From Botryococcus braunii (taxonomy: Eukaryota > Chlorophyta > Trebouxiophyceae): 64,000 nt of DNA. This document shows, in pieces, positions 8,088 through 32,994 of this stretch; the stretch's first letter is position 1, and the number at the start of each line of letters is the position of its first letter. Below the pieces are notes generated by a model that saw only the letters and a program-made list of their open reading frames with translations, was not told the DNA's origin and ran no database searches. The position numbers and the translations under genes are program-made. The stretch is from positions 50,146 to 114,145 of the forward strand of contig MVGU01001454.1 of NCBI GenBank assembly GCA_002005505.1, in the 5' to 3' direction.

Positions 8088-9122
8088 ATGTCTCGGCATA
8101 CCCGTTCGGGGTCTAGAGCCCGTGCACCTAGTCCAGGCCATGTCGACCCAGATCCCCCTGTAGATCCCTTTGATGAGGAGGAAGTAGATCTTACAGATGT
8201 AGATCCAGGTCGCATGATGAGGCATTTGGTTGCTATTGGAGCTCTCCCCGCGGAGGCTGTTGAGGCAAGATCTAGTGTTCCTTTGACGACCCCACACGAT
8301 GCTGCAACTCAGAACCTTCTTGATGGCTTTGAACGAGTGATTCAGCGTGCCTTGGCACAACCTGTGGTTTTGACTCAGCCTCAGCCAACGGTCATGCCGG
8401 CACCGGCTCCTGTTCCCGCCAGTTCAGGGAAGACATCTCTCAAATTCCCTGACCCGCCTGTATTCGAGGGAGATGCTATGAAGTTAGATCCCTGGGTGAT
8501 GCAGTGCGAGATGCATTTGAGGGCATATGGGATAGATTTTGGTTCTACACGTGCAGTGGAGGTTGCATCGATGTTTCTGCGTGGGAAGGCGCTGGATTGG
8601 TGGACTGGGCAGTATCATTTGATTGCCTCAGGAAGTCTATCTGCCTTTGGGTCTTGGAGTGAATTTGTGTGAGCTTTGACAGTGGCTTTTAGACCTGTAG
8701 AGCTGCACAAGAGACACCTGGATCAGCTTCTGAATGTGTCGCAGGGCAAACATGATATGAGATCTTACATTGCTACGTTTAATGCTCTTAGAGCAAAGGT
8801 CCCGAATGCATTCTCTGAGGATACGTTGCGCCACCTGTTTTTGCAGGGCTGCAGGGCTGATCTGCAAAAACCGATTTCTCTTCAGTATCCAAAGACGCTT
8901 GCAGACCACTTTAAACATGCAGTGACCATATCAGATATCCCCAGCCATTCCAGAACGCCGCACCATACTCCAAAAGGCCAGACTGACTCCAAGAGCCCTG
9001 GTGCGACAAAACCAGTTACGCAGACCTGCACGCATTGTGGGAAGGTTGGGCACGGCGTTGACCGGTGCTACCAACTGCACCCTGAACTCAAGCGGGACCG
9101 TAACAAGTCCAAGATGACTTGA
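8088..9122 (+). pseudogene. gag: gag of element C (nonsense codon)
   Basis: Starts at ATG 8088 (MSRHTRSGSRARAPSP) and runs in one frame to the TGA at 9120-9122, 345 codons, except for an in-frame TGA at 8670-8672 after SWSEFV. The next codons (ALTVAFRPVELHKRHLDQL) continue normal gag homology, so the stop is probably a CGA-to-TGA change. The body carries the capsid-like region typical of Ty3 retrotransposon gag (DPWVMQCEMHLRAYG, FLRGKALDWW), and the C-terminus holds a CX2CX4HX4C zinc knuckle (CTHCGKVGHGVDRC) near codon 315. It would coat the genomic RNA; as it stands it is truncated. Confidence 0.85.
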
Positions 9123-9168: not shown

Positions 9169-12115
9169 ATGGTTTCCACCTGTCCTGCACTCCAGTATGG
9201 GATCCCTGTATTGCACGACGTGGGGAATCTTCAGGACTTTTTCTCTAGCTGTTGCCATAGTTTCATGACCCATTACGTGGATGGGCATGGTGTATGTAGG
9301 AAGTTTCAGACATCACCCCCTGACAGTGACCTGGCCAGTCCTGATGTTCAGTGTAAGAGTGGTGCAGCTTTCTCGTTTCCTGCAAGTACTTCTCATGTTG
9401 TATTGTTTTGTCAGAGTAGTGACAGAGCGTCTGCTGTCAGCCAACTTGTAACCCACTTACTCCCTGGTACCAGATTGACTGTGCTTTCTGGCCCGAGTGA
9501 TTGTGGACAGGTGTTGGAAGGGGCTACTGGGCAGCAATCTCATGATGTCTTGCTTTCGGGCCCTGTGTTGACTGCTTTGGGCATTACTTCCACCGTTCAG
9601 AGCTCGCCCCATTGCTACTCATCAGGCTTGCCCTTGTTTCGTTGCTTTGTGCAGACTGGTTGTTTGAGTGTGAAGCAAAAACCCCTGCCAGCAACTTCTT
9701 TTGACTCTTTTGTGCAGTTAAACACTAGCCAGACTGTGAATGGTCCTGATCTTTCCTCTACGTGCATTGAATTTGAGAGAATTGTTGCTGGTAGACCTGT
9801 CAGGATTTTGTTAGACAGTGGGGCCTCTGCAAACTTTATTGATAATAAACTTGTGCAGGAGCTTGCCCTTCCCACTGCTTCTTTAAGTTCACATGTTGCT
9901 ATTCGTGTTGCTGATGGTAGGACCTCTATAGTAGAGAGTAGTGTGGCAATTGACCTGACTGTGGGGTCTCTGGATTTTGGAGTCACCTGTCTCCCCACAG
10001 AGTTGGCATACTATGACCTTGTTTTAGGGAAACCTTGGTTGACTGTGTTTAATCTGGTTGTAAATTGGAAGCTAAATGCAGTGTCATTGATTCATTCTGA
10101 TAGGACACATGTACTTGTGGGCTGCCAAAGGTCAGGTGTATCTGAGTATGTGATCTCCTCCATAGAAGTGGAAGAGTTGGTCCAGTTGGGTGAACCAATG
10201 TATCTGATTCAGCTTAATGCAGTGACCGAACCCTCCTTAAATACTAATACATATAACGTGCCAGAGTTGGAGCAGCTTCTGCAGGAATTTAAAGATGTCC
10301 TTTCAGGACTGCCTCAGGGCCTGCCTCCCTCTCGTGCTGGAGACCACTATATTAGATTGGAGCCGGGCGCAGTTCCTCCAGCCTCCCGCATTTATCCACT
10401 GTCCGGAGCCCAGCTTGCTGAGCTTTGTGCACAGTTGCAGGAGCTCCTAGAGAGGGGCTTCATCCGCCCATCGACTTCCCCTTTTGGTGCACCTATCCTG
10501 TTCGTCCCGAAGAAGGATGGTGGTTGGCGTTTGTGTATTGACTATAGAGCCTTGAACAGGGTTACTGTGAGAAATCAACACCCTTTACCTAGGATTGATG
10601 AAATGTTTGAGCAGTTGCATGGAAGTTGTGTGTTTTCTAAACTTGACCTTGCCTCTGGCTACCACCAGATTCGTATGCATGAGGATAGCATAGAAAAGAC
10701 TGCTTTTATAACCCGTTATGGTCATTATGAGTTCACTGTTATGCCTTTTGGGTTAACTAATGCTCCTGCCACTTTTCAATCTGTTATGAATACTATCCTG
10801 GCTCCCTTTCTGGATAGGTTTGTGTTGGTTTACCTGGCTGACATCCTGATATATTCCAAGTCTGTTGAAGAACACATGGAGCACTTACGTACTATCCTGT
10901 CAGTGCTAAGGGGACATAAATTCTATTGTAAAAGATCTAAATGTGAGTTTGTTTCTAAGCAGGTGGAATACTTGGGACACTTGTTGACACCCCAAGGGAT
11001 TATGGTGGATCCGAGGAAGGTTGCAGCCATCCGGGACTGGCCCACTCCCTTAAATGTGTCACAGTTGAGAGGTTTCTTAGGCTTGACTCAATACTATGAT
11101 ACATTTATAGATCACTTTGCAGATGTTGCATTTCCCCTTACTGAGCTATTGAAGAAGGATGTGACCTGGGCTTGGGAGGGACCTCAAGCCCAAGCCTTGA
11201 TTGCATTGAAGGACCTTGTGTCCTCTCCTCCATGTTTGTTAATGCCAGACTTAGACAAACCGTTTGTGATACATGTAGATGCCTCAGGCTTTGCTGTGGG
11301 TGCTGTTTTGCAGCAGGATCAAGGACAGGGTCTGCAGCCTGTCGCTTTTGAGTCCAGGAAACTCCAGCCCCCTGAGAGAAAATTAGCCCCGTATGACAGA
11401 GAATTATTGGCTCTTGTTCATGCTTTGCTTAGATGGAAACATTTGCTGTTTGGCGCTAAATTTACAGTTCACACTGATCAGCAGGCTTTAAAGTACTTAC
11501 TGACTGCTCCTATTAGGACTAGTAGGCAGGAACGTTGGCTCACTGAGATTATGAGGTTTATGCCTGATATAAAGTATGTTAAAGGCACTGATAATGTGGT
11601 TGCAGATGCTTTGTCTAGGCGTGTTGACCTTGCAGTGATGCATGTCTCCTCTGTTGCTGTCTCTTCTCTCCTACAAGAGATTGCCTTGCTTTGTGTTTCT
11701 GATCCCACAGTTGCTACACTTGTGGATGAAGGTGTTTTGGTATTGAGGGACTCTGTACCTTATTCTGTGCAGTCAGGGAAGGTCTATGTACCTGATGCAT
11801 TGAGAGAGAAGGTGCTGAGAGAGTGCCATACCACACCCTTTTCTGGCCATCTTGGTATTAACAAGATGTATGAGCTAGTGTGCAGGGAGTTTTGGTGGCC
11901 ACGTCTCAGCTCATCAGTCAGGGACTTTTGCAGGTCTTGTGACACCTGCCAGCGCACTAAAGGAATTGGAGCCGTACCTTATGGTTTGCTTCAGCCACTG
12001 CCCATTCCAGATGGACCTTGGCAGAGCGTTTCCCTTGATTTAGTGACTGATTTACCTGTCTGTTGTGGGTTTGACTCTATTGTGGTATTTGTGGATAGGT
12101 TTTCTAAGTTGTGTG
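9169..12115 (+). pseudogene. pol: pol of element C, 5' part (PR-RT-RH-IN)
   Basis: About 982 codons from ATG 9169 to the point where element B inserted. Domains: aspartic protease (ILLDSGASANFID near residue 214; DLVLGKPW), reverse transcriptase (RLCIDYRALNRVT, FSKLDLASGYHQI), RNase H (VIHVDASGFAVGAVL, VHTDQQALKYL, VADALSRR) and integrase zinc domain (HLGINKMYEL...CRSCDTCQRTK) with the first catalytic Asp (SLDLVTDLP). The RT box reads YLAD in place of YxDD (near residue 555), so one catalytic aspartate is Ala and the enzyme should be dead. The apparent end ...FSKLCV-stop is created by the LTR of B; the frame continues exactly at 38961 when B and one TSD are removed. Confidence 0.9.
12111..12115 (+). 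repeat. Target-site duplication of element B (left copy)
   Basis: GTGTG, repeated at 38956-38960 directly after the 3' LTR of B. Confidence 0.9.
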
Positions 12116-12356
12116 TGTAACAGGGGTTCAACGATCGGGTGAACCTCGTGACGCATAACGGCGTTACACGTGCAGTAGCGCACCGGTGGTGCTGCTGTGC
12201 GGGCAGAGATTGGACAAGATAGAGAGGTGTTAGGATAGTCTAGGCACCTAAAGGCTTGGGTTTAGAGTTATAGAGACCTTGGGCGAGAGGTGGAGCCCCA
12301 TTATGTAAGGTTCGTGGCAGTCGGGGTTTGGGACCTTTGCCGATCGGTCCGTGACA
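12116..12356 (+). repeat. 5' LTR of element B
   Basis: 241 bp, TGTAACAGGGG...GTGACA, no difference seen from 38715-38955. It shares its first nine bases, TGTAACAGG, with the LTR of A but is otherwise different. Confidence 0.93.
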
Positions 12357-12675: not shown

Positions 12676-12945
12676 TGTAACAGGAAAAGTCGCGTGTTAT
12701 AGGAAAATGACCGGACCACGAGGATTTGGACCTCCATAAAGGTCCCTTCGTGAGTTATGTTCCTCCACGCCAAGAAGTGGCTACTTCACGCGCCAAGGGA
12801 GTGACCCTTACTTGACAAGGCGCATTGGCGATGGAGACAGGGACACACTTAGAACAGGATAGAATAAGGCTTTGGCAGAGGAAGGACCGGGCCGGACTGG
12901 ACGGGTACTGAGGTGGAGCCCAAACAACTTGTAACCATTGTTTTC
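12676..12945 (+). repeat. 5' LTR of element A, first 270 bp
   Basis: Matches 32697-32966 base for base by eye. The remaining 22 bp lie at 26401-26422. 270 + 22 = 292 against 298 bp for the 3' LTR: the missing six bases are GCATCC. Confidence 0.93.
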
Positions 12946-14108
12946 TGCTGAAAGGATGCTTTTGGGCCATGGTGTGGGGTTTTTTTTGGGGGAGGGGGCG
13001 ATTTTTCGGGAGGGGGGCTGTTTAGGGGCGTGGGATTTGAAATGGCGAGGGGGCTGGGAGTCATATGTATTTCATGACGGTGGACTTTCGAGGGGCTGGT
13101 TCCGTCGGCGGACAGCTTTTCAGGGGGGTGGTTGCCTCTGTTGTCTTCGTACGCGGCGATGGGCTGGGGAGGTGCCTGTTTTTTGGCCCCGGAAGGGGTC
13201 GGGTGTCAGCTTCCTCGGAGGTGTGAACCGCGTGGAAGGCCTGAATGTGGATCGGTTCTGCATGCGGATCGGTTCTGGATGCGGTGGAGTGCTGATGAGG
13301 TTGTATTGTTCCTTGTGGGGTGCCTCGACTTAACTTTAGTGCATTCTCTTCGCGTCTGGGGTGGCGGTGACGAAGGCGGCGGCGGTTGCGGTTCGGAGTA
13401 GGTGCGTCTTCGGGGTTTCTCCGGTGCCTTTTGTCCTGATGTGGTTTGGTTGTGCCGTTGCATTGAGCAGCATGTTGCAGGAAGTCCAGGTTGATGGTAG
13501 CTAGATGGGTCGCGGTGGAGGGAGCGGGCGGGGGCAATCGGGGAGCCTGCCGGTGGGGTGTGTGGAGTGTATGGATGGCGATTGCATGTATAGTCCACGT
13601 CTGGCTGTTATAGCGTAGCAGAGGGTAGGAGTACGAGGATTGTGGGAGGGACGCAACCTAAGGAGTCTATCGAGGTCGGGGTTTTGGGCGCCGGGGGTCT
13701 GCCGCGGGGGTGTGTGCAGTGCATGTATGGACATTGCAAGTATGGTTATTGTGGTGTAGCAGAGGGGTAGAAGGTTGAGGAGTGGGTGTGGGGAAGGCTG
13801 GGTGGGTAAGTAGTTTGGCCCGTGGTTGGCAGGCTGTGCCGGCAGCCATTGCTTGCATGGACTGTGCACGTATGGCTGTTGTGGCACAGCAGGGGTTGGA
13901 AGGGTGAGGGATTTGGGTGGGGTGCACTTGTCAGAAGGGTCTTAGGTCAGGGGTTTGGCTCGTGTGAGGCCTTACTGCCAGTTGTGCGGGACGCAACGAA
14001 CTTGGAACGTTGGGGTTTGCTGGGTGGATAGTGGGAGATGGCTGTTGTTGGGCATATCTGCTGATCTGGGGGTCTGCAGGGGTTGTGCAGGTGCCATGTT
14101 GACAGTGA
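12946..14108 (+). other. Left non-coding end of the OTU-YR-PIF1 element
   Basis: G-rich DNA with T-run and G-run stretches at 12980-13030 and no convincing exon. About 13540-13990 holds three degenerate ~140-bp units sharing (A/T)TATGG(C/T)(T/G)(G/A)TTGT-like cores followed by (G/T)AGCAGGGG(T/G)TNGAAGG-like sequence. Open frames on both strands here lack splice context and differ between repeat units. Confidence 0.45.
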
Positions 14109-17100
14109 ATGCAGCGGCTGCAGTTTGTGGCAGCAACAAGTTCTGGTTGGAAGAGCAGGCACCAGCCAGCATCCACTTGGACAAGGGCCTGCGGATGGGG
14201 AGAAATTGTTGAAGGCTTAAAGGGGATAGACGCGGCAAGGGGGGCACAGGCGCAAGAAAGGGGGGGTGTGGCCTTATACGCCACACAAGAGGATTCGGCC
14301 TACCTGCAGGTACGTGGTTGGGGCATGCCAGTTTGTGCTGGCACAGTGCCGGTAGTGGATGTGGGTGATGGTGCTGACAGAGTAGGGTGGGGGGGGGGGG
14401 GCAGAACTATGGGGCCAGCGCTGAGGCCCTGCTGGAGGGTTTCGCGCGGGAGTGCGAGGCGGTGAAGCCTTCTGCGTCTGTGTTGGCGCAGTATGTCGCT
14501 TGCGACGTTGTGAGCGGTGCAGGGGATGGTGCGCCCCTGCGGTGGTGGCTTGCCGATATCTGGGTTTGGGTGTGGAGGGACGTTAGGGGGGGAGGGGGTG
14601 TGTGCATGGGCCTTGAACCTGTGTAGGATGGTGGCATTGCAGGGAATTGCGGGATGTATGGCATGTTGACAGGGATGGTTGTGGGTGGCGCGCTGCCTGT
14701 GCACTGGCAAGCTGCCATGGAGAGAGACGGTGCGAATATGCACGAGACACAGCGGCTGATGCGGAAGGAGATGCACATTTTTGGGAAGCAAAGGATACGT
14801 GGAGTCACCGACGTGTCGGAGGAATTTAAAAAGGTGAGAGGTAGTAGTCTTTGTCAAGTATGGGAGTGGCACACGCAAGTGGCAGATGCAGTTGAGGGGA
14901 CCTAACGCAGGTGTTCGGGCCAGGCGGTGGAGGCTCTGCGGGATTCAGAGACGGATATTGACATGTCAGCAGTGGCGGAGTTGGTAGCCTCGGCGCATCA
15001 GCTGACCATTGCTATTTTGCGGGTGATGGGCGGGAACGTGTTTGTGCAGATTTTCACGCCGGAAGACCCAGGTATGTGGAGGTGGCAAAGGGAGGCGTTG
15101 TTGATGGTACTGCAGGATCGCTGTGGAGGGCGGCATGGGGGTGGTGCGGTGAGGGGTTTGCGGTGGAAATTGGTGGCACTTGCAGGTGCAGGGGGCAGAA
15201 GGTTGGTGTGCTTGTGGCAGCAGCAAGAGTTGCAGCAGGGCCAGCGGGGGCACTTTGCGGGGGTGCGTGTCCGGGAAGACATGGATGTGGTGCAGCTCCA
15301 GAGGGCCACGGGGCGCGTGTGCCAGGATGTGCTTGAGATAAACTGCCGTGCAGTCCCCCGGCACTTGAGCATGATGGGCAAGGTTGACGGCGGGGAACCT
15401 ACAGGCGGCTTGCGTGTTTCACTGGTGCGTGGGCCTGGGAGGCAGGACCCCGAACGTGGGGGGCAGGCGTGCGCCTATGGAAGTGTGGGGCGGGGGGGGG
15501 GTGTGAGGGGGTGGTGGGTGCTGAGGGGGGGGGGGGCAAACGTGTGGGGGCGTGTGCCTGTGCGTGTGCGTGGGTTAGATTGTGTGCGTGTGCGTGGGCG
15601 TGTGCGTGTGGTAGCTTGTGCGTTTGTGTGTGTGTGCGTGTGTGCGTGTGTGTGCATGTGTGTGTGTGTGAGCGTGTGTGTGTGCGTGTGTGGGCGCTGG
15701 ACTAGGGGGGGGGCAGGTGGGGGTGGGCGTGCGGGTGTGTGCGTCTGCGTGGGCGTGTGCGTGTGTCAGATTGCGCGTTTGTGTGTGTGTGCGTGCGTGT
15801 GCGTGTGGGTGTGTGTGTGTGTGGACGGGCGTGAGCAGGTGCGCATGGGTGTGGGTGCGCGTGTGGGTGTGTGTGGGGGGGGGGGGGGAGGGGATCCTGA
15901 GTTTTGTGCATGCGGGGGTATTCACTGCTTGGGGTTACCGCTCGTGTGTTGCAAGCAGGCTCCTGCTCTGCTGCGGCCCGCCGTCTTGCCGCTGGCCTCA
16001 ACCAGTGCAGTTTCAACTGCTGGTGTCAGTACGGTACGTGGCCCTGGGAGGTGTCTTGGTAGCGTTCAGTAGGGTTTGCTAGGGTAGTTGTGGAGCAGGG
16101 TTACTGCGTGGTTTGGGGTGTAGGTGTGGGGGTGTCTTGTTTTGTACGTGTGGGTGGATTTGTAGGCTGGGGCTCGGGCCAGCATCCGTGGGATGGGCTG
16201 TTGTGGCGTGGCGGTCTTGGGAAGCAGCAGGGACTGCTGCGTGCTCTATCAACGTGCGCTTAGGCTGAGGCCTGTTGGTGGGTAGTGCAGGACGCCCCTG
16301 TCTCACCGCAGGCGGCTCGGCCGAGCCAGGCTCTGCCGAGCCCTGCCGTGAAGGCCTCAGAATGGGTGAGCGGGTCGCTGGTCGGGCAGGCGACGTACTT
16401 GGGAGGTGTCTTGGTAGCGTTCACTAGGGTTTGCTAGGGTAGTTGTGGAGCAGGGTTACTGCGTGGTTTGGGGTGTAGGTGTGGGGGTGTCTTGTTTTGT
16501 ACGTGTGGGTAGATTTGTAGGCGGGGGCTCGGGCCAGCATCCGTGGGATGGGCTGTTGTGGCGTGGCGGTTTGGGAAGCAGCAGGGACTGCTGCGTGCTC
16601 TATCAACGTGCGCTTAGGCTGAGGCCTGTTGGTGGGTAGTGCAGGACGCCCCTGTCTCACCGCAGGCGGCTCGGCCGAGCCAGGCTCTGCCGAGCCCTGT
16701 CGTGAAGGCCTCAGAATGGGTGAGCGGGTCGCTGGTCGGGCAGGCGACGTACTTGCAGGCAGCAAGCACTCCGCCGTTAACGCACGGGAGGAGCTCCTCA
16801 GGGGAAAGCAAGGGGCGCGGATTGCAAGCCTCCATCAGCAAGGAGGACGCTGCGGTGCTGCAAGAGGCACAAGGCATATTGAGGCGCCGCCTGGCAGCGA
16901 GAGCCTCCCCGACGTCTTCACCTTCGAAGCGAAGCTCGAAACCAAAGAGGAGCCGGTCTGTGCAGGATGGGTCGGGGAGCGCCGATGGATTCGAACCCGC
17001 GAAGCGGACGCGAAAGGGCAGTCGGGGGGCAGGCAGTTCGGGGTTCGAGTTGGAGCTGGGGAACAGGTTTGGGTGCCTGGACGATGCTGGAGGAGGCGAT

Positions 17101-18392
17101 GCGGATGCGGGTGTGCTGCGAGGATCAGGACTGGCAGGAGGTCCAGCAGGTGGGTCTGTGGTGTGAGGGTGTGACGTGTGAGGGTGTGGTGGTTGGTGCT
17201 TGTGAGGGTGTGGAAGGTGTTGCTGTACTGATTGGGGGGGGGGGGGGGGCTGCAGGTTCGTGGCAGGGATCCAGCCCGGGCGCCTCGGGGGGGGCACAGG
17301 CAGCGAGCGAGAGTACGGCGACAGATGGCTACACGCGGGAGGAGCAGGGCATAGCAAACTTCCTGCAGGCGCTGGAAGAGGAAGTGGCCCTGGAAGATGA
17401 GGGGGAGCGCAGCGAAGGTGCAGGTGAGGGGGAATGTGTTGGGAGTGGCGTTGAGGTGTTGTGCCGGGTGCAGCGCGCATGCATTGGGGGGCATGGGGAC
17501 TGATGTTGGGGAACTGGGCAGGCACAGGTGACGAATCCACGGGAGAGGAGGACGCGGAAGAACGGGCGGCGAAGAAGAGGACGGCGAAGCACGAGACGGA
17601 TGGTGCGTGGGTGTGGGCGTGCGCGTGTGTGTGCACGCGGAGTGCGGATGTGTGGGAGTGTAGAGGGGTGTGTGTGGTTGGCGTGCGCAGGAGCGTGCGC
17701 GGGTGCATGGGGGGGGGGGCGGGCAGGTGCGGGTGGGTGTGGGTGGGGGAGGGGGAGCGTGGATGGGGCGTGGATGGGGCTGTGTGCGCCTGCGGGCGTG
17801 GCGCGCTGTGCGGGGGGTTTGTGGGGGGGGGGGTGCGGGTGCCGGCGTGTGTCTCATGCGAAGGGGGGGGGGGGGGCCCGCCGTGTGGACACGGGTGTGA
17901 TCTGGCATGCATTGCTGCGGTTCCTGATTGGCTTGTGGGCAGAAGGCATTCAGGGGGGGGGGGGCGTGTGTTTGGCAGGCCTGTCGTCAGGGGTTTCGCC
18001 ACCGAAGAGCGGCACCAGACCTGGCGGGGCGCGCCACCCTCCAGCTCGGAGAGGCAAGGAGGCAGTGATTGATGCCTCAACAGGTGAGGGAGCCTTAGGT
18101 TTGGGCAGTTGTGGCTGTCCCCACACGAGGCACCTGCCACGGTCCTGGGCGTTTGAGGAGGAGTAGTGGGGCTGTGCAGGTGCGGCCTCCTCGGTTGTGG
18201 CATGTAAGGCTGGTGGGAAACTGGACGGGACGGTGTGTTGTGAGGACCCTGAGGCCAAGGCAGCCGTGATGCACGTTGTGAAAGGTAAGAGGTGTGTGGG
18301 AAGGGTGGGGGCTGTCTGTCTGCCTGTCCGTTTGGGGGGGGGGGGAGGGGAGGGTGTGTGGGTGTGTGGGCCTCTCTCTGGGTGTGCGTGTG

Positions 18393-18448
<56 letters not shown>

Positions 18449-18596
18449 TGCGTGTGTGTGTGTGTGTGGGCCTCTGTGTGTGTGGGGGTGTGTGCGTGCG
18501 TGCGTGTGGGTGTGTGTGTGTGTGTGGGTGGTTGTGTGTGCGTGTGTGTATGGGTTTGTGTGTGGGTGTGTGGGTGTGTGTGTGTGTGTGTGGGTT

Positions 18597-18695
<99 letters not shown>

Positions 18696-20680
18696 TACTG
18701 TGTGAGTGAGTGGATGGGCGGAGGGAGTAAGAGGGGTGGCGGGGGTGCTGCATGTCCGTGCTGCGGGTGCGTGTGGGCTTCAGCATGCCTGAATGGGAGC
18801 TGCTTGTCCGCATTTCCTGCTGCAGGGGCTCGGCACGGGTTCTCTGGTGTTTTCTGTTGGCTTGCGTTGACTGTGCCTATGGATTGGCAGGGTCGTCGGA
18901 GGGGCTAGTGTCGTCCACGCATGGCGGTAAGGCAGCGAATGTGGCTCCTGTCATAAGAAAGGCCACCAAGTCTGGGAGGAAGGCCGCAGGAGGTGAGGCG
19001 AACGGGGCTGCTGTGACGTATGGTAGGGTCGGAATGCGCGGGTGCACTCCAGCGAGTCTGTACTTTAGGAGTCTGGTAGTGCGCTTACGGGTGGAAGCGC
19101 AGGAGCTTGCTGAGTCCCAGATCCCGCAGGGGACTCTGTTGGCATTTATGGATTCACCCTTACTGGCCCTTTGCAACAATGTGCTGGCATCCACGACAGA
19201 AACCTCGAGCCTCAATCGTACGTATGCATGGGCGCATTTTTGCATGTGGAAGTATGGGATGGATGTCCCAGGCTTGCAAAAAACTCTGGAGGAATTCCCT
19301 CCTACAGCTCCCGAGTGGGAGGCCTTTAGGTTATGGACGAGGGCACGTACATCGTCGTATGATGCGTTTAGGACAAACTGGGGATACATTAATACGATAG
19401 GCACAGAGTATTGGGCCACTAAGCCTCGAGGAGAGATGCGTACAAGGGAACAATGCAGCCCGGTAGTGATGTATTCCGCCAGGCATAAGAAAGGCCTAGC
19501 AATGATAAGGAGGGCGTGGCCGGTGACACTGAGGGGGTGTGAGCCCATTACAATGGATGAGGCACGAAGCGGTCCACATTTTTGTGATGAAAGCAGTCTG
19601 ATTGGGGTGTTCCATGGCGCCGCATGGATGATGGGGGTGGTTTTGGGGGGGAAACGCTCGCGGACGCTTGTGGCAATGCGTGCCGGCGACGTTGTATTCA
19701 GGGTGGCCCGTCGTAGGGTGGGAGAAAGTCGGGGGAAGCAGCGTATAGTGGAGGTGGTAGTCAGGTTTAGAGAGGAGAAATATGACGACAAGTATGGGCC
19801 GCGAGCGCTGGTGGATAACCCACCCGACAATATGGCGGAAGAGGAAGTGAAGGAGTCGTTTGGGAACTGGGCATACAAGTTGTTTCAGGCTCGAGGGTTG
19901 TTTGATACTAAGCATCCCATGATGGAGGAGGCATTGGGCGCTACATTCCAGGTGAGAGACGAATGCAAGGAGTTTTACGTCTTCTGCCGAGTGACAGGGG
20001 TGGTTTGGGTTGATACCTTGCCACTCGTGACTGCGGATCTGAGCAGGTGGACAGGGCAGCTGTTGAGCCGTATGGGGAGCGAGAAGCGGGGGTTCAGTGC
20101 GCATAGGTCTGGGTATGTGACCCGGGCGGTGACAAAGAGAGTGATGGAGACTGGGGGGACCGAGATTCCAGAGTCATTTGTGGCTGCATTGACGCGGTCG
20201 GGCGGGTGGGAAGCATGCAGTGGGCAAAAAACCGTGATGAAGATATATTGTCGGCAAGTTCTGGACTTGCATATAAACACACACTCGTGGGGCCTGGGGA
20301 AGAATGGCACTGAGGATGTGTGGAAGGAAAGGTTGGCGGAGTATCTAAAGCCAGGGCGTTGGCCAGGTGTTGTGCCGCGCAACAGAGGGAGTGGTTGGAT
20401 TGAGAAGGTGCAGGAGGTGGGCCAAAGTGTTTGTGTGCGAGAGTTGCAAGAGCTGGTGAACGCAGCCGGCAGAAAAGCGGCCGCCACCGCTGTGGGGGAC
20501 ATGGAAATCATGCCGTTGCGGCGATATGTGGAAGACGGTAAAGCGGTTCGAAAGTTGAAGCGCAAATGCCCTGAGGCATTTGAAGATGTGGAGGCCTCGA
20601 TGGAACGCCTGCAGAAGGTGGTGATGACGCTTTTGGGCAGGAGGGTGCGAGGCAAAAGGCAGGGCAGGGCCACGGAGTGA
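14109..20680 (+). CDS. OTU-like protease / tyrosine recombinase fusion, 11-12 exons
   Basis: Proposed exons: 14109-14309, 14405-14528, 14643-14833, 14924-15071, 15186-15424, (16291-16365), 16645-17149, 17256-17423, 17528-17602, 17979-18083, 18180-18284, 18891-20680. All junctions are GT-AG and in frame, giving about 1216 residues (1241 with the optional exon). Order of domains: OTU-like cysteine protease (about residues 70-250), low-complexity linker with basic NLS-like [14 protein letters not shown], acidic/basic linker exons, C-terminal tyrosine recombinase (about 860-1080). The product would cut and rejoin DNA for the element; the protease may process the polyprotein or remove ubiquitin. 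The start at 14109 is the least certain point, and fusion versus two adjacent genes needs RNA. Introns are G/T-rich, up to 1.2 kb. Confidence 0.68.
14405..15424 (+). CDS. OTU-like cysteine protease exons
   Basis: Exons 14405-14528, 14643-14833, 14924-15071 and 15186-15424. The diagnostic OTU nucleophile motif appears only after splicing 14528 to 14643: ...GAGDG|NCGMYG, i.e. the family's DGNC box with Cys near residue 111. Downstream, [20 protein letters not shown] resembles the OTU helix-strand segment (typically E-x-A-L-A-x-x-L...I-x-V), and QRGHFAGVR supplies the expected catalytic His near 244, after a strand (LVCLW). Known OTU domains occur in some large transposons, including Helitron-type elements. 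Function (deubiquitination or self-processing) is inferred from family only. Confidence 0.62.
15425..16644 (+). other. Large intron of the OTU-YR gene with GT array
   Basis: Phase-0 intron starting GTGCGTGGG. Contains a (GTGTGC)n-type array at about 15545-15885, G runs, and most of a 355-bp tandem duplication that begins at 16046. Confidence 0.5.
16046..16755 (+). repeat. 355-bp tandem duplication carrying an exon start
   Basis: 16046-16400 and 16401-16755 are near-identical (one indel, a few substitutions). Each copy includes a 3' splice site (GTAGTGCAG) and the first 25 codons of the next coding exon, ending at GAATGG|GTGAGC. The upstream copy can thus act as a 75-nt phase-0 cassette exon (16291-16365); the downstream copy reads on into 16645-17149. 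Confidence 0.88.
16645..17149 (+). CDS. Linker exon with basic nuclear-localisation-like segment
   Basis: Part of the OTU-YR gene. 505 nt, open in one frame, with a Ser/Arg/Lys patch ([14 protein letters not shown]) at about 16915-16960 and a further basic patch ([11 protein letters not shown]). Splices in phase 1 to 17256. Such basic linkers suit nuclear import and DNA contact of a recombinase; no fold is recognised. Confidence 0.6.
17603..18890 (+). repeat. G/T-rich introns of the OTU-YR gene
   Basis: Introns 17603-17978, 18084-18179 and 18285-18890 hold GT microsatellite (densest at about 18380-18695, over 300 bp) and G runs at 17710, 17825, 17868 and 17952, separated by two short coding exons. 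Long Cys-Val or Thr-His frames across the array are artefacts. Confidence 0.8.
18891..20680 (+). CDS. Tyrosine recombinase catalytic exon
   Basis: Last exon of the OTU-YR gene, about 596 codons after the phase-1 acceptor TTGGCAG. The region before about 19570 is helical and could be the core-binding domain ([24 protein letters not shown]). Catalytic signatures: [18 protein letters not shown] aligns with the box I G-x-R-x-x-E-L-x-x-L-x-x-x-D of YRs, Arg near residue 876; [12 protein letters not shown] aligns with the HxxR-x-G-x-x-T box, retaining Arg (about 1025) but with Ser where His normally stands; GGW...VMKIYCRQ supplies the Trp and the nucleophile Tyr (about 1072). Order and spacing fit the Crypton/DIRS-type YR superfamily more than phage integrases. 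Alternative: a diverged, inactive YR. Confidence 0.7.
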
Positions 20681-20875
20681 TGGTGCGGCCCAGGATGGTG
20701 ATGGTGTCGATGTGCTGTTGTAGGGGTGGGGTTTAGTGCGGCAGCCGGGCAGAAGCAGCTGGTTTGTAAATGGCGCTGGTGATGAATTGAATTTGTGCCG
20801 TTGTTGTGCCTAGTTTTGCTAGGACTTGCAGTAGGAGGGTGCCCTGTTGAGGGAGTTGGAGTGTGAGTAGTTGCA
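20681..20875 (+). promoter_or_regulatory. Intergenic gap between the OTU-YR and helicase genes
   Basis: 195 bp between the stop TGA and the next ATG. It must hold the end of the first transcript and the start of the second if they are separate genes. No clear TATA or polyadenylation signal was seen. Confidence 0.3.
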
Positions 20876-22215
20876 ATGTGGGGTGGACTATGCGCAGGCG
20901 GATTGCATGGTGTCCGCCGCGTGATACGCAACGGCCAACAGAAATTCGTGGCACAGTGGGAGATTTATGTCGTAGATGCGCGCGGACAGACGGAAACGCG
21001 GAAACGTGTTGTGGACTTGGGGCCTGCGCGGGAGTCGGAGGCCGCTGCAGAGTTCGATGTCTTTAGATCGTGGCGCAGGTTGACGAAGAATAAAGTCCCG
21101 CTTGACGATCTGCCGTTCTGGGGCAAGTGTGGGAATGCGCAGCCCCCGGAGGGGTACACAGAGCATCTTGCCCATGGGAACAGCATTCTGGCATGGTTGT
21201 GTGGGAATGTGGTTCAGTATTGCAAGCGCACACAGGCGTTGATGATACCCGATCCGGAGGGCCGTCCTCAAGCACACATGTTCCGCCTGTTCGAGACGTG
21301 CGGGGCTGAAAATTCCGGAGGTTGGGAGTGGATCCGGTTGGTTGGGAAGGATGGCAGCGACGGTGTGGGGAGGGCTGCGGACTGCGTGGATCTAACCGCC
21401 ATGGAAGACGACGATGACATCATGGTGGACCGGTGCGCACCGATTGAGGTCCAGGTTGGGTGTGTGGTGGCGGCAGGTGGTGGTTATGAAGTGGAGAGGA
21501 AGGGTTGAAGTGGTTTGGATGGGTGTCAGGGCGGCCACGTGTGGGGGTTCACCGGGAAAGGGGCGTGCTGATCTGCCGTCCGTACCATGTGCTGTGGTGG
21601 AAGAGGGGGCCAAGCATCCGAGAGGGAAGCGGGCCGGCCGGACGCATATGCCCGTGTACCACAGGCTGCCTAAGCAGTACCCGACGGGCGGTTGTGGGGC
21701 GCCCACTGTGCTGCAGCTTTTCAGCAAGGAGCAGCAGCGGCAGGAAGCTTTGAGGTAAGGGGCTGTTACCTGCAGTATGGGGCAGGATGGTGTAATCAGT
21801 AGGGGTAGGAAGGGGGGGGGGTGGGGCTGGCTACGGCTGGGTAGGATGGTCCGGGCAGGGCGGCGGGCAGCAGGATTGCGGCGGGCAGTGTGAGTCGAAC
21901 CGAAGCATGGTGGCGTGCAGGCGGGAGGAATGTGCAAACGGGATGCGGCAAGAGGCGGGTGAGGCAGGGGCCGTGCCATGTGAGGCAAGGAACGACAAGG
22001 GACCGGAGGTGGTACGTGGCGGAGGCGAAGCAGATGTACGGGCGTCCACCATGCTGGCCGCTGAGGAAAGGTGTGGTGGCACTGGCAGGGGCCTGGAGCC
22101 GGGGGCAAGTGCGGGGTGGGGACTTGTGAGGGCGCTAGTTGTACGGCAGGCCAGGAGTTGGGCAAGGGGGGAGGGTGCGGGGGTATGTGCCTGGGTGGTT
22201 GCGCGCGCGTGCGCG

Positions 22216-22279
<64 letters not shown>

Positions 22280-24219
22280 TGTGTGGGGGCGGGTGTGTGT
22301 GCGCGCGCCTGTGTGTGGGTGTGTGTGTGTGTGCGCGCGAGAGGGTGCGGCTGCGGATGTGGTTGCGGGTGGGGGTGTGCGTGTGTGCGTCTGTAGGAGA
22401 GAGTGTGTGTGTGTGGGTGTTGCGGGTGGGTGTGTGCGTGTGTAGGAGAGTGTGTGTGTGTGTGTGTGTGCCAGCGGGTGCGTGTGTGCGTGTGGGCGCG
22501 TTCGTGCGTGCAGGCGCGGGGGCGTGTGCGTGCGAGGGCTTCGGTGCGAGCTCGTCCTGTGTTGCTCATCTGCCCATGTGCCTCACGTTGTTGGGGGCGC
22601 GCAGGGCGAAGTTAAAGATCCGTTTTGATCAAGCGGTGCGGCAGATTGCACTTGGTCTTCGGCATGTGCATATCAGCGGACCTGCGGGGTATGGGAAGTC
22701 TCGCTTTGTTAAAGTGCATGTCTTGCGAGAAATAGCAAAGGAAGTGGAGCGTAGCGGGGTGGCCGTCACGGCCATGACGCGTATATCCTCCATGAAGCTG
22801 GGAGGTCGTACGTTTCAGAGCTGGGGCGGTGTAGGGTTTGGAGATGCTCCTGTTGAGACGCTGGTGAGGAGGATGAACGCAGCTGCCAAGGATAGGGTGC
22901 GGCAGACAAAGGTTCTTATCATAGACGAGGTGTCCCTGTTGAATGGGCAACTGCTAGACAGGGTGGCAGCAGTGGTTAGGAAAGTACGGGGGGACAATGA
23001 AGTGTTCGGGGGGATTCGGTTGATCATTGTAGGGGATTTCTGCCAGCTGGAGCCGTTTTCTATATACACGGCGGAAGACAGCGAATCTGGAACACAGGGG
23101 TGGACGGTGCGATCGGTAGTGGGGAAGTACGTGTTCGAGTCGGACGTGTGGAAGCGAGGGAACTTTAAGTGCTACCGCTTGTTGAGATGCCACCGGTGTG
23201 AGGAAGGTAGTCCATTGTGGACACTGCTGAATAAATGCCGTTCTGTGGAGAAAATGGGGGCCGAATTGTTTGAATTGTTTAGTAAACGCATGAAGGAGGG
23301 TGGTACCGCACCTGATCCAGGGATTGACGTAACGTACGTCGTGAATACGAATAAAGCTGCCAAGGACCTATGCAATTATTACCTGGAGAAGGTGGACGCA
23401 CCGAAGTCGCAGTATTGGGCAGTGGACAGGGTGAGGCAGAGGACAGGTGTGAAGCCGGTGGCTGTGCGTTTGGGGGAGCAGACTCCCACAGGGCCGGCCA
23501 TGAGTGTGAAGGGTAAGGATGGGAAGTATCATGATTTAATGACGCGGTGCAGAGGTCAGCAGGTGGTAAGTTTGAAACAGGGGGCTGTGGTGGTCGCGGT
23601 GGGCCCGGTCGGGTCCCAGGTCCCGACGGGGAGCTTTGGAGTGGTGGAAGGGTTTGAGGCTGTAAGGAGGCACATGTTGGAGAAGGGAAAGGACGAGGGT
23701 CTTTTTAAGGAGCAGAAGATCAGCGATGCCGAGGCGAAGGGGGATTGGGAACACGTTGGTGGTAAGGAGGGAGAGACGCCAATGTGGCCGCGGGTTGTTT
23801 TCCAAGTGCATGGGGCCAAAAAAAGTGCGGTTGTTGAGCCCAGGATGATGGTCCTGAGGGACTTCAATGGCAACTATTTGGGAAGCCGGTACCAATTACC
23901 AATCGCGCTGGGTTACGCTGTGACAGTCCACAGAGTGCAAGGGTTGGATCTGAAAACGGTGGTGTACGATGTCACCGCTGCTTTTGCGTATGGGCAAGTG
24001 TACAGCGGTTGTAGCCGTGCGTCCGAGCTGGAGAAGTTGTATATTATAGGGACGCTGGATTCAGAGTACCCGATGCAGCATAAGGACGTGTTGAAGTTTA
24101 TGGCGAATGAGGAATGGATAGGGATAGACAACGTTGTTGAGGACGACGTAGCTTGGGAGGGAAACACGGACGAGACAACAGATTCAGACGCCGAGGAATC
24201 ATTCAATTGGTTCCAGTAA
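20876..24219 (+). CDS. PIF1-like SF1 helicase gene, four exons
   Basis: Proposed exons 20876-21459, 21530-21754, 21921-22070 and 22605-24219, about 857 residues; all three introns are phase 2. Helicase motifs in the last exon: Walker A GPAGYGKS (about residue 345), Walker B IIDEVSLL (about 425), motif [11 protein letters not shown] (about 462), motif [17 protein letters not shown] (about 755) and motif VI-like [17 protein letters not shown] (about 785), where ALSR of typical PIF1 is GCSR. The N-terminal ~320 residues ([11 protein letters not shown]...; [19 protein letters not shown]) match no family I know. The C-terminus is acidic ([12 protein letters not shown]). The role would be unwinding DNA, perhaps at G-quadruplexes, which PIF1 enzymes resolve and which this G-rich element could form. 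Intron 3 carries a GT array at 22205-22520. Confidence 0.78.
21430..21692 (+). repeat. Inverted repeat, internal arm (263 bp)
   Basis: Covers the end of helicase exon 1, intron 1 and most of exon 2. Its reverse complement stands at 26138-26400 at the right border. The arm begins at the palindrome CGGTGCGCACCG (21431-21442). Confidence 0.9.
22205..22520 (+). repeat. GT microsatellite in helicase intron 3
   Basis: (GT)n with GC-alternating edges, inside the proposed phase-2 intron 22071-22604. Confidence 0.85.
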
Positions 24220-24349
24220 GTCATGTAACGAAAGCGACCTTGCACGGAGTTTGGCGGAGAGGCTGGGGTGGTGACTGTGGGCCTGACGAGGGCGGGGGGC
24301 GGGGGGGTGAAGGGGGGGGGAGGGAAGGAACGGAGGATGCGGTATGTGC

Positions 24350-24530
24350 AAAAGAGGGGGCTGTGGTGGTGGCAGTGGACCCGGTCGGGTCGGCGGGTCC
24401 GAGGGGAAGCTTGGGAGAAGGGTCCGGGACTGCAAGGGGGCAAGCGTTGGGGGAAGTAAATGACGAGGATCTAGGAAGTCGAGGCAAAGGGCGGTTGGGA
24501 ACATGTTTGTGGCATGAAGGGAGAGGTGCC
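24350..24530 (+). pseudogene. Decayed partial duplicate of the helicase gene
   Basis: Diverged copy of 23575-23785: both contain GGGGGCTGTGGTGGT(C/G)G(C)G, (G/A)CCCGGTCGGGTC, GGAGAAGGG, GACGAGG, GAGGC(G)AAGGG(G/C)(G)G(A)TTGGGAACA(C/T)GTT and end near GGGAGAG. Indels destroy the frame. It lies 130 bp after the helicase stop codon and runs into a GT array, so it is a local tandem duplication that decayed. Confidence 0.75.
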
Positions 24531-24532
24531 CG

Positions 24533-24704
24533 CGTGTGCGTGTGCGTGTGCGTGTGCGTGCGTGCGTGCGTGTGTGTGGGGGCGTGCGTGCGTGCGTGTG
24601 GTTGCGTGGGCGTGTGGGTGTGTGTGTGTGCGCGCATGTGTGAGCGTGCGTGTGTCTGGGTGTGTGTGCGGACGTGGTCGGTGCGCGCGTGGTTGTGGGC
24701 GGGG

Positions 24705-24796
<92 letters not shown>

Positions 24797-24953
24797 GTGT
24801 GTGGGCGCGTGGGTGGGTGTATGGGTGGGTGTGGGTGTGTCTATGTGTGTGTGTTGGGGTGTGTGTGTGTGGGTGTGTGTGTGTGTGGGTGGGTGGCTGT
24901 GTGTGTCCGCGTGTGTGCGCGTGCGTGCGTGGCCGTGTGTGGGTGTGTGTCGC

Positions 24954-25039
<86 letters not shown>

Positions 25040-25110
25040 TGCGTGTGCGCGTGGGTGTGCGCGCGGGTCTGGGTGCGGGGGATGGGTGCGCGGGTGTGGG
25101 CGCAACTGCG
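24533..25110 (+). repeat. Compound GT/GC microsatellite
   Basis: Nearly 580 bp of GT, GTGC and GTGGGT units on the plus strand downstream of the helicase gene; no coding value. Confidence 0.88.
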
Positions 25111-25138
25111 CGGGTGGCAGTGAGTTAACTGGGAGGGG

Positions 25139-26106
25139 AGGGCACACGGAAAGTCCGCGAGACACTGATGGGCAAGGGGGAATAGAAATTGTTCCAGGGC
25201 CAGGGAACCGCAGACGGGGAAGTCCGCGGGACATTCAGGGGGGAAGGGGAAAAAGAAATTGTCCCAGGGCCAGGGAACCCGGTGGGCGAGGCATCCATGA
25301 CTTTGGCTGTCACGGACAAGGGAGTTGTTTCAGGGTTGGGGATTGGGGTCCAAAAGCAGAGAGAGTCCGCGAGAAGGGGAAAAAGACATTGTTCAGGGCC
25401 AGGGAGGCCGGTGGGCGAGCATGAAGGACTGTGGCTTTCACGGACAAGGGGATAAGGGAATTGTTTCCCGGGCCTGGGAAGCAGGAGGGCGCAGGAATCG
25501 ATGACTGTGGCTTTCGCGGAAAAGTGGTTTGAGGGTCGGGGATTGGGGTCCAAAAGTTTGGGAGTCCGCGAGAAGGGGAAAAAGAAATTGTCCCAGGGCC
25601 AGGGAACCCGGTGGGCGAGGCATCCATGACTTTGGCTGTCACGCACAAGGGAGTGGTTTCAGGGTTGGGGATTGGGGTCCAAAAGCAGAGAGAGTCCGCG
25701 AGAAGGGGAAAAAGACATTGTTCAGGGCCAGGGAGGCCGGTGGGCGAGCATGAAGGACTGTGGCTTTCACGGACAAGGGGAAAAGGGAATTGTTTCCCGG
25801 GCCAGGGAAGCAGGAGGGCGCAGGAATCGATGACTGCGGCTTTCGCGGAAAAGTTGTTTGAGGGTCGGGGATTGGGGTCCAAAAGTTTGGGAGTCCGCGA
25901 GAAGGGGAAAAAGAAATTGTCCCAGGGCCAGGGAACCCGGTGGGCGAGGCATCCATGACTTTGGCTGTCACGGACAAGGGAGTGGTTTCAGGGTTGGGGA
26001 TTTGGGTCCAAAAGCAGAGAGAGTCCGCGAGAAGGGGAAAAGGACATTGGTCAGGGCCAGGGAGGCCGGTGGGCGAGCATGAAGGACTGTGGCTTTCACG
26101 GAAAAG
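25139..26106 (+). repeat. Tandem array, 329-bp period, about 2.9 units
   Basis: The landmark GGTGGGCGAGGCATCCATGA recurs at 25281, 25610 and 25939, i.e. every 329 bp. Each unit contains three related ~110-bp subunits marked by AGTCCGCGAGAAGGGGAAAA, CAGGGCCAGGGA and TCACGGACAAGGG variants. Units are almost identical, so the array is young or homogenised. Frames through it on either strand simply repeat and are not genes. Subterminal location suggests a binding array for an element protein. Confidence 0.9.
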
Positions 26107-26137
26107 GGGTACCATCAGATCAGGATCACGGATGAAG

Positions 26138-26400
26138 ACCGCCCGTCGGGTACTGCTTAGGCAGCCTGTGGTACACGGGCATATGCGTCCGGCCGGCCCG
26201 CTTCCCTCTCGGATGCTTGGCCCCCTCTTCCACCACAGCACATGGTACGGACGGCAGATCAGCACGCCCCTTTCCCGGTGAACCCCCACACGTGGCCGCC
26301 CTGACACCCATCCAAACCACTTCAACCCTTCCTCTCCACTTCATAACCACCACCTGCCGCCACCACACACCCAACCTGGACCTCAATCGGTGCGCACCGG
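26138..26400 (-). repeat. Inverted repeat, terminal arm at the right border
   Basis: Reverse complement of 21430-21692 with the same length of 263 bp and no difference seen by eye. Its last bases, CGGTGCGCACCGG, abut the resumed LTR of A at 26401. Confidence 0.9.
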
Positions 26401-26422
26401 TTTGGCCGTTTCTACTGTATCA
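26401..26422 (+). repeat. 5' LTR of element A, last 22 bp
   Basis: TTTGGCCGTTTCTACTGTATCA, identical to 32973-32994. Confidence 0.92.
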
Positions 26423-26423
26423 C

Positions 26424-32696: not shown

Positions 32697-32994
32697 TGTA
32701 ACAGGAAAAGTCGCGTGTTATAGGAAAATGACCGGACCACGAGGATTTGGACCTCCATAAAGGTCCCTTCGTGAGTTATGTTCCTCCACGCCAAGAAGTG
32801 GCTACTTCACGCGCCAAGGGAGTGACCCTTACTTGACAAGGCGCATTGGCGATGGAGACAGGGACACACTTAGAACAGGATAGAATAAGGCTTTGGCAGA
32901 GGAAGGACCGGGCCGGACTGGACGGGTACTGAGGTGGAGCCCAAACAACTTGTAACCATTGTTTTCGCATCCTTTGGCCGTTTCTACTGTATCA
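32697..32994 (+). repeat. 3' LTR of element A
   Basis: 298 bp, TGTAACAGGAAAAG...TGTATCA. Uninterrupted reference for the split 5' LTR. Confidence 0.94.

Follow-up and report, generated by a model that had tools for sequence, protein, structure and literature searches.

The Botryococcus braunii window analysed here (the whole stretch of 64,000 nucleotides, C460:50146–114145) holds a 13,456-bp insertion (12946–26401), G-rich on the + strand with many GT runs, that carries a tyrosine recombinase (YR)-like gene and a PIF1-type helicase gene. Across the genome (176 Mb in 989 contigs), insertions of this element are anchored on the left and stop at many different points on the right, an unusual feature that the initial annotation of the window missed. 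We tentatively read the element as a one-ended, helicase-driven DNA transposon, Helitron-like, with a YR replacing the HUH nuclease; its anatomy and copy pattern are observed, its chemistry we infer, and we place the chance of the whole a little below even. Somewhat more doubtful is its rank as a separate, new class among eukaryotic DNA transposons. In such a class, a YR would transfer a single strand at one end only, PIF1 would drive transfer or copying to a chance stop and host repair would provide the second end.

The insertion interrupts the 5′ long terminal repeat (LTR) of a young Ty3-type element, which starts at 12676, is broken after 12945 and resumes at 26402 (Table 1). The 3′ LTR reads TTTTC GCATCC TTTGG; because it keeps the empty site GTTTTC^GCATCCTTTGG, we count ~6 bp of target (GCATCC) as lost at the right junction. 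The initial annotation had described a recent mobile event exactly delimited by the split LTR. A recent mobile element is supported, and the 270-bp identity between the LTRs confirms the split, but the right boundary is not formed by a terminus of the element itself. Just 5′ of the insertion, a second Ty3-type pol frame (window 9169–12120) stops inside its integrase part.

Left ends were counted with an exact pattern (TGCTSAAAGGAYGYTT, the 16 first element bases, TTC left out) with the reversed pattern as control, and diverged ends are therefore missed. The 31 left ends include pairs with common flanks or a common site (C14/C711, C913/C173 and C429/C335, with C433 at the same reverse transcriptase (RT) gene site as C429/C335), so independent events number fewer than 31. 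TC lies upstream of all 31, TTC of 30 and CTTC of 28, the base before TC being T in 30, C in one and A in none. A homology search with 12943–14130 gave 53 matches; 21 start with the first query base and one with the second, and four start at query base 10 and represent another family with another start. At loci L053, L056, L057 and L061 we noted a related family that has the G-rich left region, with a different start that does not follow TTC.

The TTC pre-exists in the target at four insertion-free sites: the window LTR, the RT site (C242 and C215), C775 and the site of C479, which corresponds to gag of the window's own Ty3-type element and is readable on the left side only. Where both sides were read (three sites: LTR, RT site and C775), the target lacks a few bases at the right junction and shows no duplication. 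The empty site in C775 is CTTTCCTTC^CTTTCAT^ATCC, where C913 and C173 hold TTC, 46 bp of element and TT replacing CTTTCAT.

For the right extent, each of the 31 left ends was compared with non-sibling copies over 197–260 bp. Similarity is lost in 13 of them at 16, 16, 19, 20, 27, 32, 36, 39, 42, 46, 46, 56 and 72 bp and in two further ones at 115 and 163 bp; the remaining 16 reach or nearly reach the compared length. Longer copies stop at ~19024 (C14/C711), ~23894 (C272) and ~23885 (C158) in window coordinates, and the right side of C479 does not return to gag within ~1 kb. Among the copies whose right ends were read, a minority of the long ones, no constant right end was seen. C332 was rejected as a truncated copy, its break resembling a nested LTR insertion. 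The C28 copy has a 24-bp perfect palindrome near its right end (GGCTTTCACGGGCCCGTGAAAGCC; L027, ~8340–8390), a possible hairpin or fold-back. Aligned with the C14 copy, from which it otherwise hardly differs, C711 (L035) has numerous single-base gaps that often fall in homopolymers; these are perhaps assembly errors.

The RT site probably ties the window copy to a second long copy. In an alignment of eight relatives of a single Ty3-type RT gene at GTGTTTTCTTC^ACTTGATC, C242 and C215 are intact at that spot and C429 and C335 have the element's first 14 bp replacing AC. Six of the eight copies (L040–L042, L063–L067) carry a scar or the 14-bp insertion at the identical spot, which resembles a cutting hot spot. 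C433 is a long copy at this site, 100% identical to the window over 12943–15440 (2.5 kb) and 98.7% identical over the last 465 bp before the contig ends, its right half lying beyond the contig. In the window copy, the rightmost 296 bp (26106–26401; 32 bp + 264 bp) are not element sequence: the tail is followed by GGGGTACCATCAGATCAGGATCACGGATGAAG, which belongs to the RT site's downstream flank in the variant of C358, C164 and C20, and a 264-bp inverted stretch from the element's interior separates this flank from the LTR. C433 or a twin is thus the likely parent, and the window copy, we infer, an offspring that took along its parent's right flank.

Within the stretches compared from ten contigs, the 264-bp patch matches only its internal counterparts in C272 and C158. 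We rejected it as one of a pair of terminal inverted repeats, as no other compared copy carries the repeat at its end. C173:319224–319603 with its flanks (L037) is a similar patchwork, composed of short stretches of several repeats, among them 105 bp in inverted orientation and a 33-bp piece of RT-site flank. These right-end patches (26138–26401 and C173) look like template switches.

The YR-like exon of gene 1 sits in an open frame at 18731–20680. Its three relatives are P0001 from B. braunii and the JGI metagenome proteins P0002 and P0003 (46–47% identical); with the three-sequence alignment as query, nothing past P0001–P0003 came up among the best 8000 candidates scored (the limit for the exon search as well), and one scan of viral contigs gave no relative. 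R255, K296, H404, R405, R411, W439 and Y452 are invariant across this alignment, with the contexts GGKR (R255), AHRSG (H404 and R405) and GGW (W439) kept, and we take the order R255, K296, H404/R405, R411, W439, Y452 to be that of tyrosine recombinases. Aligned to a profile built from Cre plus three bacterial relatives, the YR profile scores 39.3 (P 2.5e-4, probability 43%) across the catalytic boxes, H...R...AGGW...Y-R, against a maximum of 23.1 in 120 column shuffles (0/120 as good) and 14.3 for the reversed profile. Given this profile–profile comparison, exon 18893–20677 likely encodes a tyrosine recombinase. PPR matches of the YR profile in the PDB were dismissed as repeat artefacts, no single stretch passing alone.

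The 5′ part of gene 1 appears coding and multi-exon. Its 14131–15440 block has 19 matches in 18 contigs, with the exact left end in seven of the 18 and the others diverged or cut there. An OTU motif order is readable by eye in the spliced exons, but the spliced model (14109–15440) has no OTU match in Pfam or the PDB at E up to 10, and we do not claim an OTU protease.

The helicase exon, with which gene 2 closes, finds its best PDB matches in chains named PIF1 (E 3.1e-38), with Helraiser at only E 4.3e-8. It is 100% identical to the annotated B. braunii protein P0004 (Botrbrau1/14974), a match that makes this alga, presumably its race B, almost certainly the source, and has a 55% identical relative in metagenome protein P0005. 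An AP2-like start of gene 2, which rested on likeness by eye to a motif, was discarded, P0004 having no AP2 match in Pfam at E up to 10. With seven copies pooled (three or four covering the YR exon, five the helicase exon), substitutions fall mostly at third codon positions in most stretches of both exons; the excess is missing in some, for example 23443–23592 and 19993–20142. Besides the YR exon, the gene-1 model and gene 2, we scanned ten further open reading frames (ORFs) from both strands, a subset of all ORFs; no Pfam family, RT and HUH included, matches any of these ten at E up to 0.1.

The initial annotation had proposed an OTU-like protease with a YR domain and a PIF1-like helicase of superfamily 1, encoded by two genes of one element. 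The helicase holds (PF05970, E 4.5e-18, and the PDB PIF1 chains), the YR and helicase frames (18731–20680 and 22606–24216) lie where they had been placed, and the protease is reduced to a motif-level resemblance. Its YR domain gains the Cre-like profile alignment, while profile libraries neither confirm a YR nor indicate another family. The genome does hold other copies; C272, whose YR frame is broken, has the two genes together, and C158 retains remnants of both. The consecutive annotated names Bobra.43_1s0065 (YR, P0001) and Bobra.43_1s0066 (helicase, P0006) point to another linked copy among the published gene models, which may be C272.

Table 1 Positions of the insertion, its genes and its boundaries in the window
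Feature	Position	Strand	Basis
Left part of split 5′ LTR	12676..12945	+	270/270 identical to 32697–32966 in 3′ LTR; ends ...GTTTTC
TTC at insertion point, read as target sequence	12943..12945	+	Before 30/31 left ends; native in four insertion-free sites
Element left terminus, TGCTGAAAGGATGCTT	12946..12961	+	Pattern TGCTSAAAGGAYGYTT: 31 genome matches, reversed control 0
G-rich left end region, common to more than one subfamily	12946..13038	+	Nine matches to query 1–96 alone, 79–87% identity
Gene-1 5′ exons, hand-made model	14109–14309, 14405–14581, 14627–14833, 14924–15071, 15186–15440	+	GT/AG boundaries; OTU-like by eye only
Tyrosine-recombinase-like exon	18893..20677	+	595 open codons; relatives P0001–P0003; Cre-like profile alignment; third-position excess
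Gene 2 first exon, as in P0004 (773 aa)	20876..21430, end approximate	+	Same sequence in eukprot Botrbrau1/14974
PIF1-type superfamily 1 helicase exon of gene 2	22606..24216	+	Pfam PF05970 E 4.5e-18; PDB chains named PIF1
Right-hand tail, 329-bp tandem units	25125..26105	+	Three copies in register; tail sequence at four genome places
32 bp of Ty3-type RT gene, downstream flank of C433 site	26106..26137	+	Exact match in C358, C164, C20
Exact inverted copy of 21429–21692	26138..26401	-	264 nt, 100%
Right remainder of split 5′ LTR	26402..26423	+	Precedes primer binding site TGGTATCGGCG; compared with 3′ LTR
3′ LTR segment	32697..32966	+	Empty-site sequence GTTTTC^GCATCCTTTGG across its end

In the mechanism we propose, the YR would exchange a single strand at the left end, so that the element 5′ end TGCT... 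becomes linked to the target 3′ end ...CTTC via the shared CTTC. The PIF1 helicase, working 5′ to 3′, would peel the element strand from the donor (or drive its copying) from left to right until it stops. The second end would be set by no element enzyme and be joined by host repair, and short copies would be mobilized in trans. Strand transfer by a YR and left-to-right transfer by PIF1 are proposed because the copy pattern is like that of the Helitron Helraiser, where the left end is essential and the right end bypassed or truncated, and where failure of the 3′ terminator likewise leads to truncation, to read-through into flanking donor DNA and to novel right ends (PMC4778049), because the ORFs scanned include a helicase and no HUH, and because integrons offer a precedent, their recombinase acting on one strand and replication being needed for completion (PMC2727003). 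Recent copies, the insertion-free sites and the probable parent–offspring pair open the element to direct tests.

Several points weigh against this reading. The YR exon has no credible match in Pfam, PHROG, NCBIfam or the PDB, PF00589 matches nothing genome-wide at E 0.1, and a mixed profile that adds the lambda and P2 integrases scores lower than the Cre profile (29.2, P 0.007, probability 5.5%). The H that usually stands three residues ahead of the catalytic R is absent from its place, and YRs normally give precise double-strand recombinants. Mobilization in trans has to be assumed, since short copies can encode neither gene, and, among the long copies, the one-ended pattern covers the right ends of a minority. 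At the RT site, four relatives (C358, C164, C20 and C343) have deletions only, with no element sequence.

Such deletions suggest a double-strand cut and not the exchange of one strand, and therefore keep alive a rival that starts from a double-strand break at CTTC^ in the target, made by the YR-like protein or some other factor. Break-induced copying would heal the break: its 3′ end would anneal to the donor over CTTC, and host polymerase with the element's PIF1 would copy from left to right. Scars free of element in half of the RT-site copies (4/8), the template-switch-like patches and the CTTC microhomology all speak for it; yet it leaves the recombinase chemistry unused, and the ORFs scanned contain no other nuclease domain; we hold it to be unlikely. 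A ladder of truncations with one fixed end is also the classical picture of a long interspersed nuclear element (LINE). Such an element, acting in trans by target-primed reverse transcription, would prime at the target 3′ end and copy an antisense transcript that terminates 3′ in the complement of the left end, with the two genes as passengers. This is improbable: the genes occupy the opposite strand and, by their third-position excess, appear to be under selection, none of the three sites with both sides read shows target duplication, and the inverted patch 26138–26401 duplicates an internal piece, unlike twin priming. The B race does have LINEs and is the only race of three with some short interspersed nuclear elements (PMC11286282), but the ORFs scanned have no RT match. 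Slightly more improbable is a YR transposon of the Crypton kind, with both ends defined and a circle as the integrating form, its ragged right ends being later deletions or assembly faults. It would accommodate the YR-like protein and the failure to find an RT, with CTTC as a possible crossover core; however, in 13 of the 31 copies the element stops no more than 72 bp from its left end (a count to which copies without an intact left end are invisible), and the target of C775 resumes directly after 46+2 bp.

The transposon proposed here shares with Helitrons and Helentrons a PIF1-type helicase, one fixed end, truncation and read-through at the other, and no target duplication in the sites read. 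It differs in having no HUH Rep match in the ORFs scanned and a recombinase-like exon instead, in inserting after (C)TTC with target bases lost on the right, and in a helicase closer to PDB PIF1 than to Helraiser. Helitrons have a 5′ TC end inserted next to A and a 3′ CTRR end with a hairpin; here TC stands before every left end, but the base before it is never A and TTC is native in the four insertion-free sites, unlike the 5′ end of a Helitron. An OTU-like protease occurs in some Helentrons, and an element with YR and PIF1 is absent from the available part of that text (PMC6431247); in the available part of the B. braunii genome paper, which lists repeat classes, the word 'helitron' is absent (PMC11286282).

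With Cryptons the element has in common a YR-like gene and no RT found; it departs from them in the added PIF1 helicase, the length of ~13 kb, the insertions cut short on the right and the absence of a Pfam recombinase match. CryptonF-2_PS also has a cysteine protease, C48, and the words 'helicase' and 'truncat-' are absent from the main text of the Crypton survey, as far as available (PMC3212892). The RT and RNase H of DIRS-type YR retrotransposons have no match in the ORFs scanned, and the YR exon and its three relatives have no Pfam match to DUF3435, the Starship captain domain, at E up to 10. LINEs, too, have one fixed end and another truncated at any length, but no RT was found here and no target duplication in the sites read. 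The proposed single-strand YR exchange completed by replication resembles integrons, in which IntI acts on single-stranded attC (PMC2727003); as these are bacterial and cassette based, the analogy is one of mechanism only.

A full-text literature search, with subscription journals and preprints largely outside its coverage, returned no element combining a YR and a PIF1 helicase, with or without OTU. Because Helitrons, DIRS elements, Starships and LINEs each fail a tested defining feature, and the available main text of the Crypton survey mentions neither helicase nor truncation, the element would be of a new kind, provided that both its assignment to the YRs and its one-endedness stand. Eukaryotic transposition routes are defined by their enzymes (DDE, HUH, YR and RT); in the present element, copies patterned like those of HUH transposons come with a YR-like gene. 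Should the left junction be the work of the YR, 'peel and paste' from one end would have arisen twice, with different enzymes, and single-strand recombination of the integron kind would occur in a nuclear genome.

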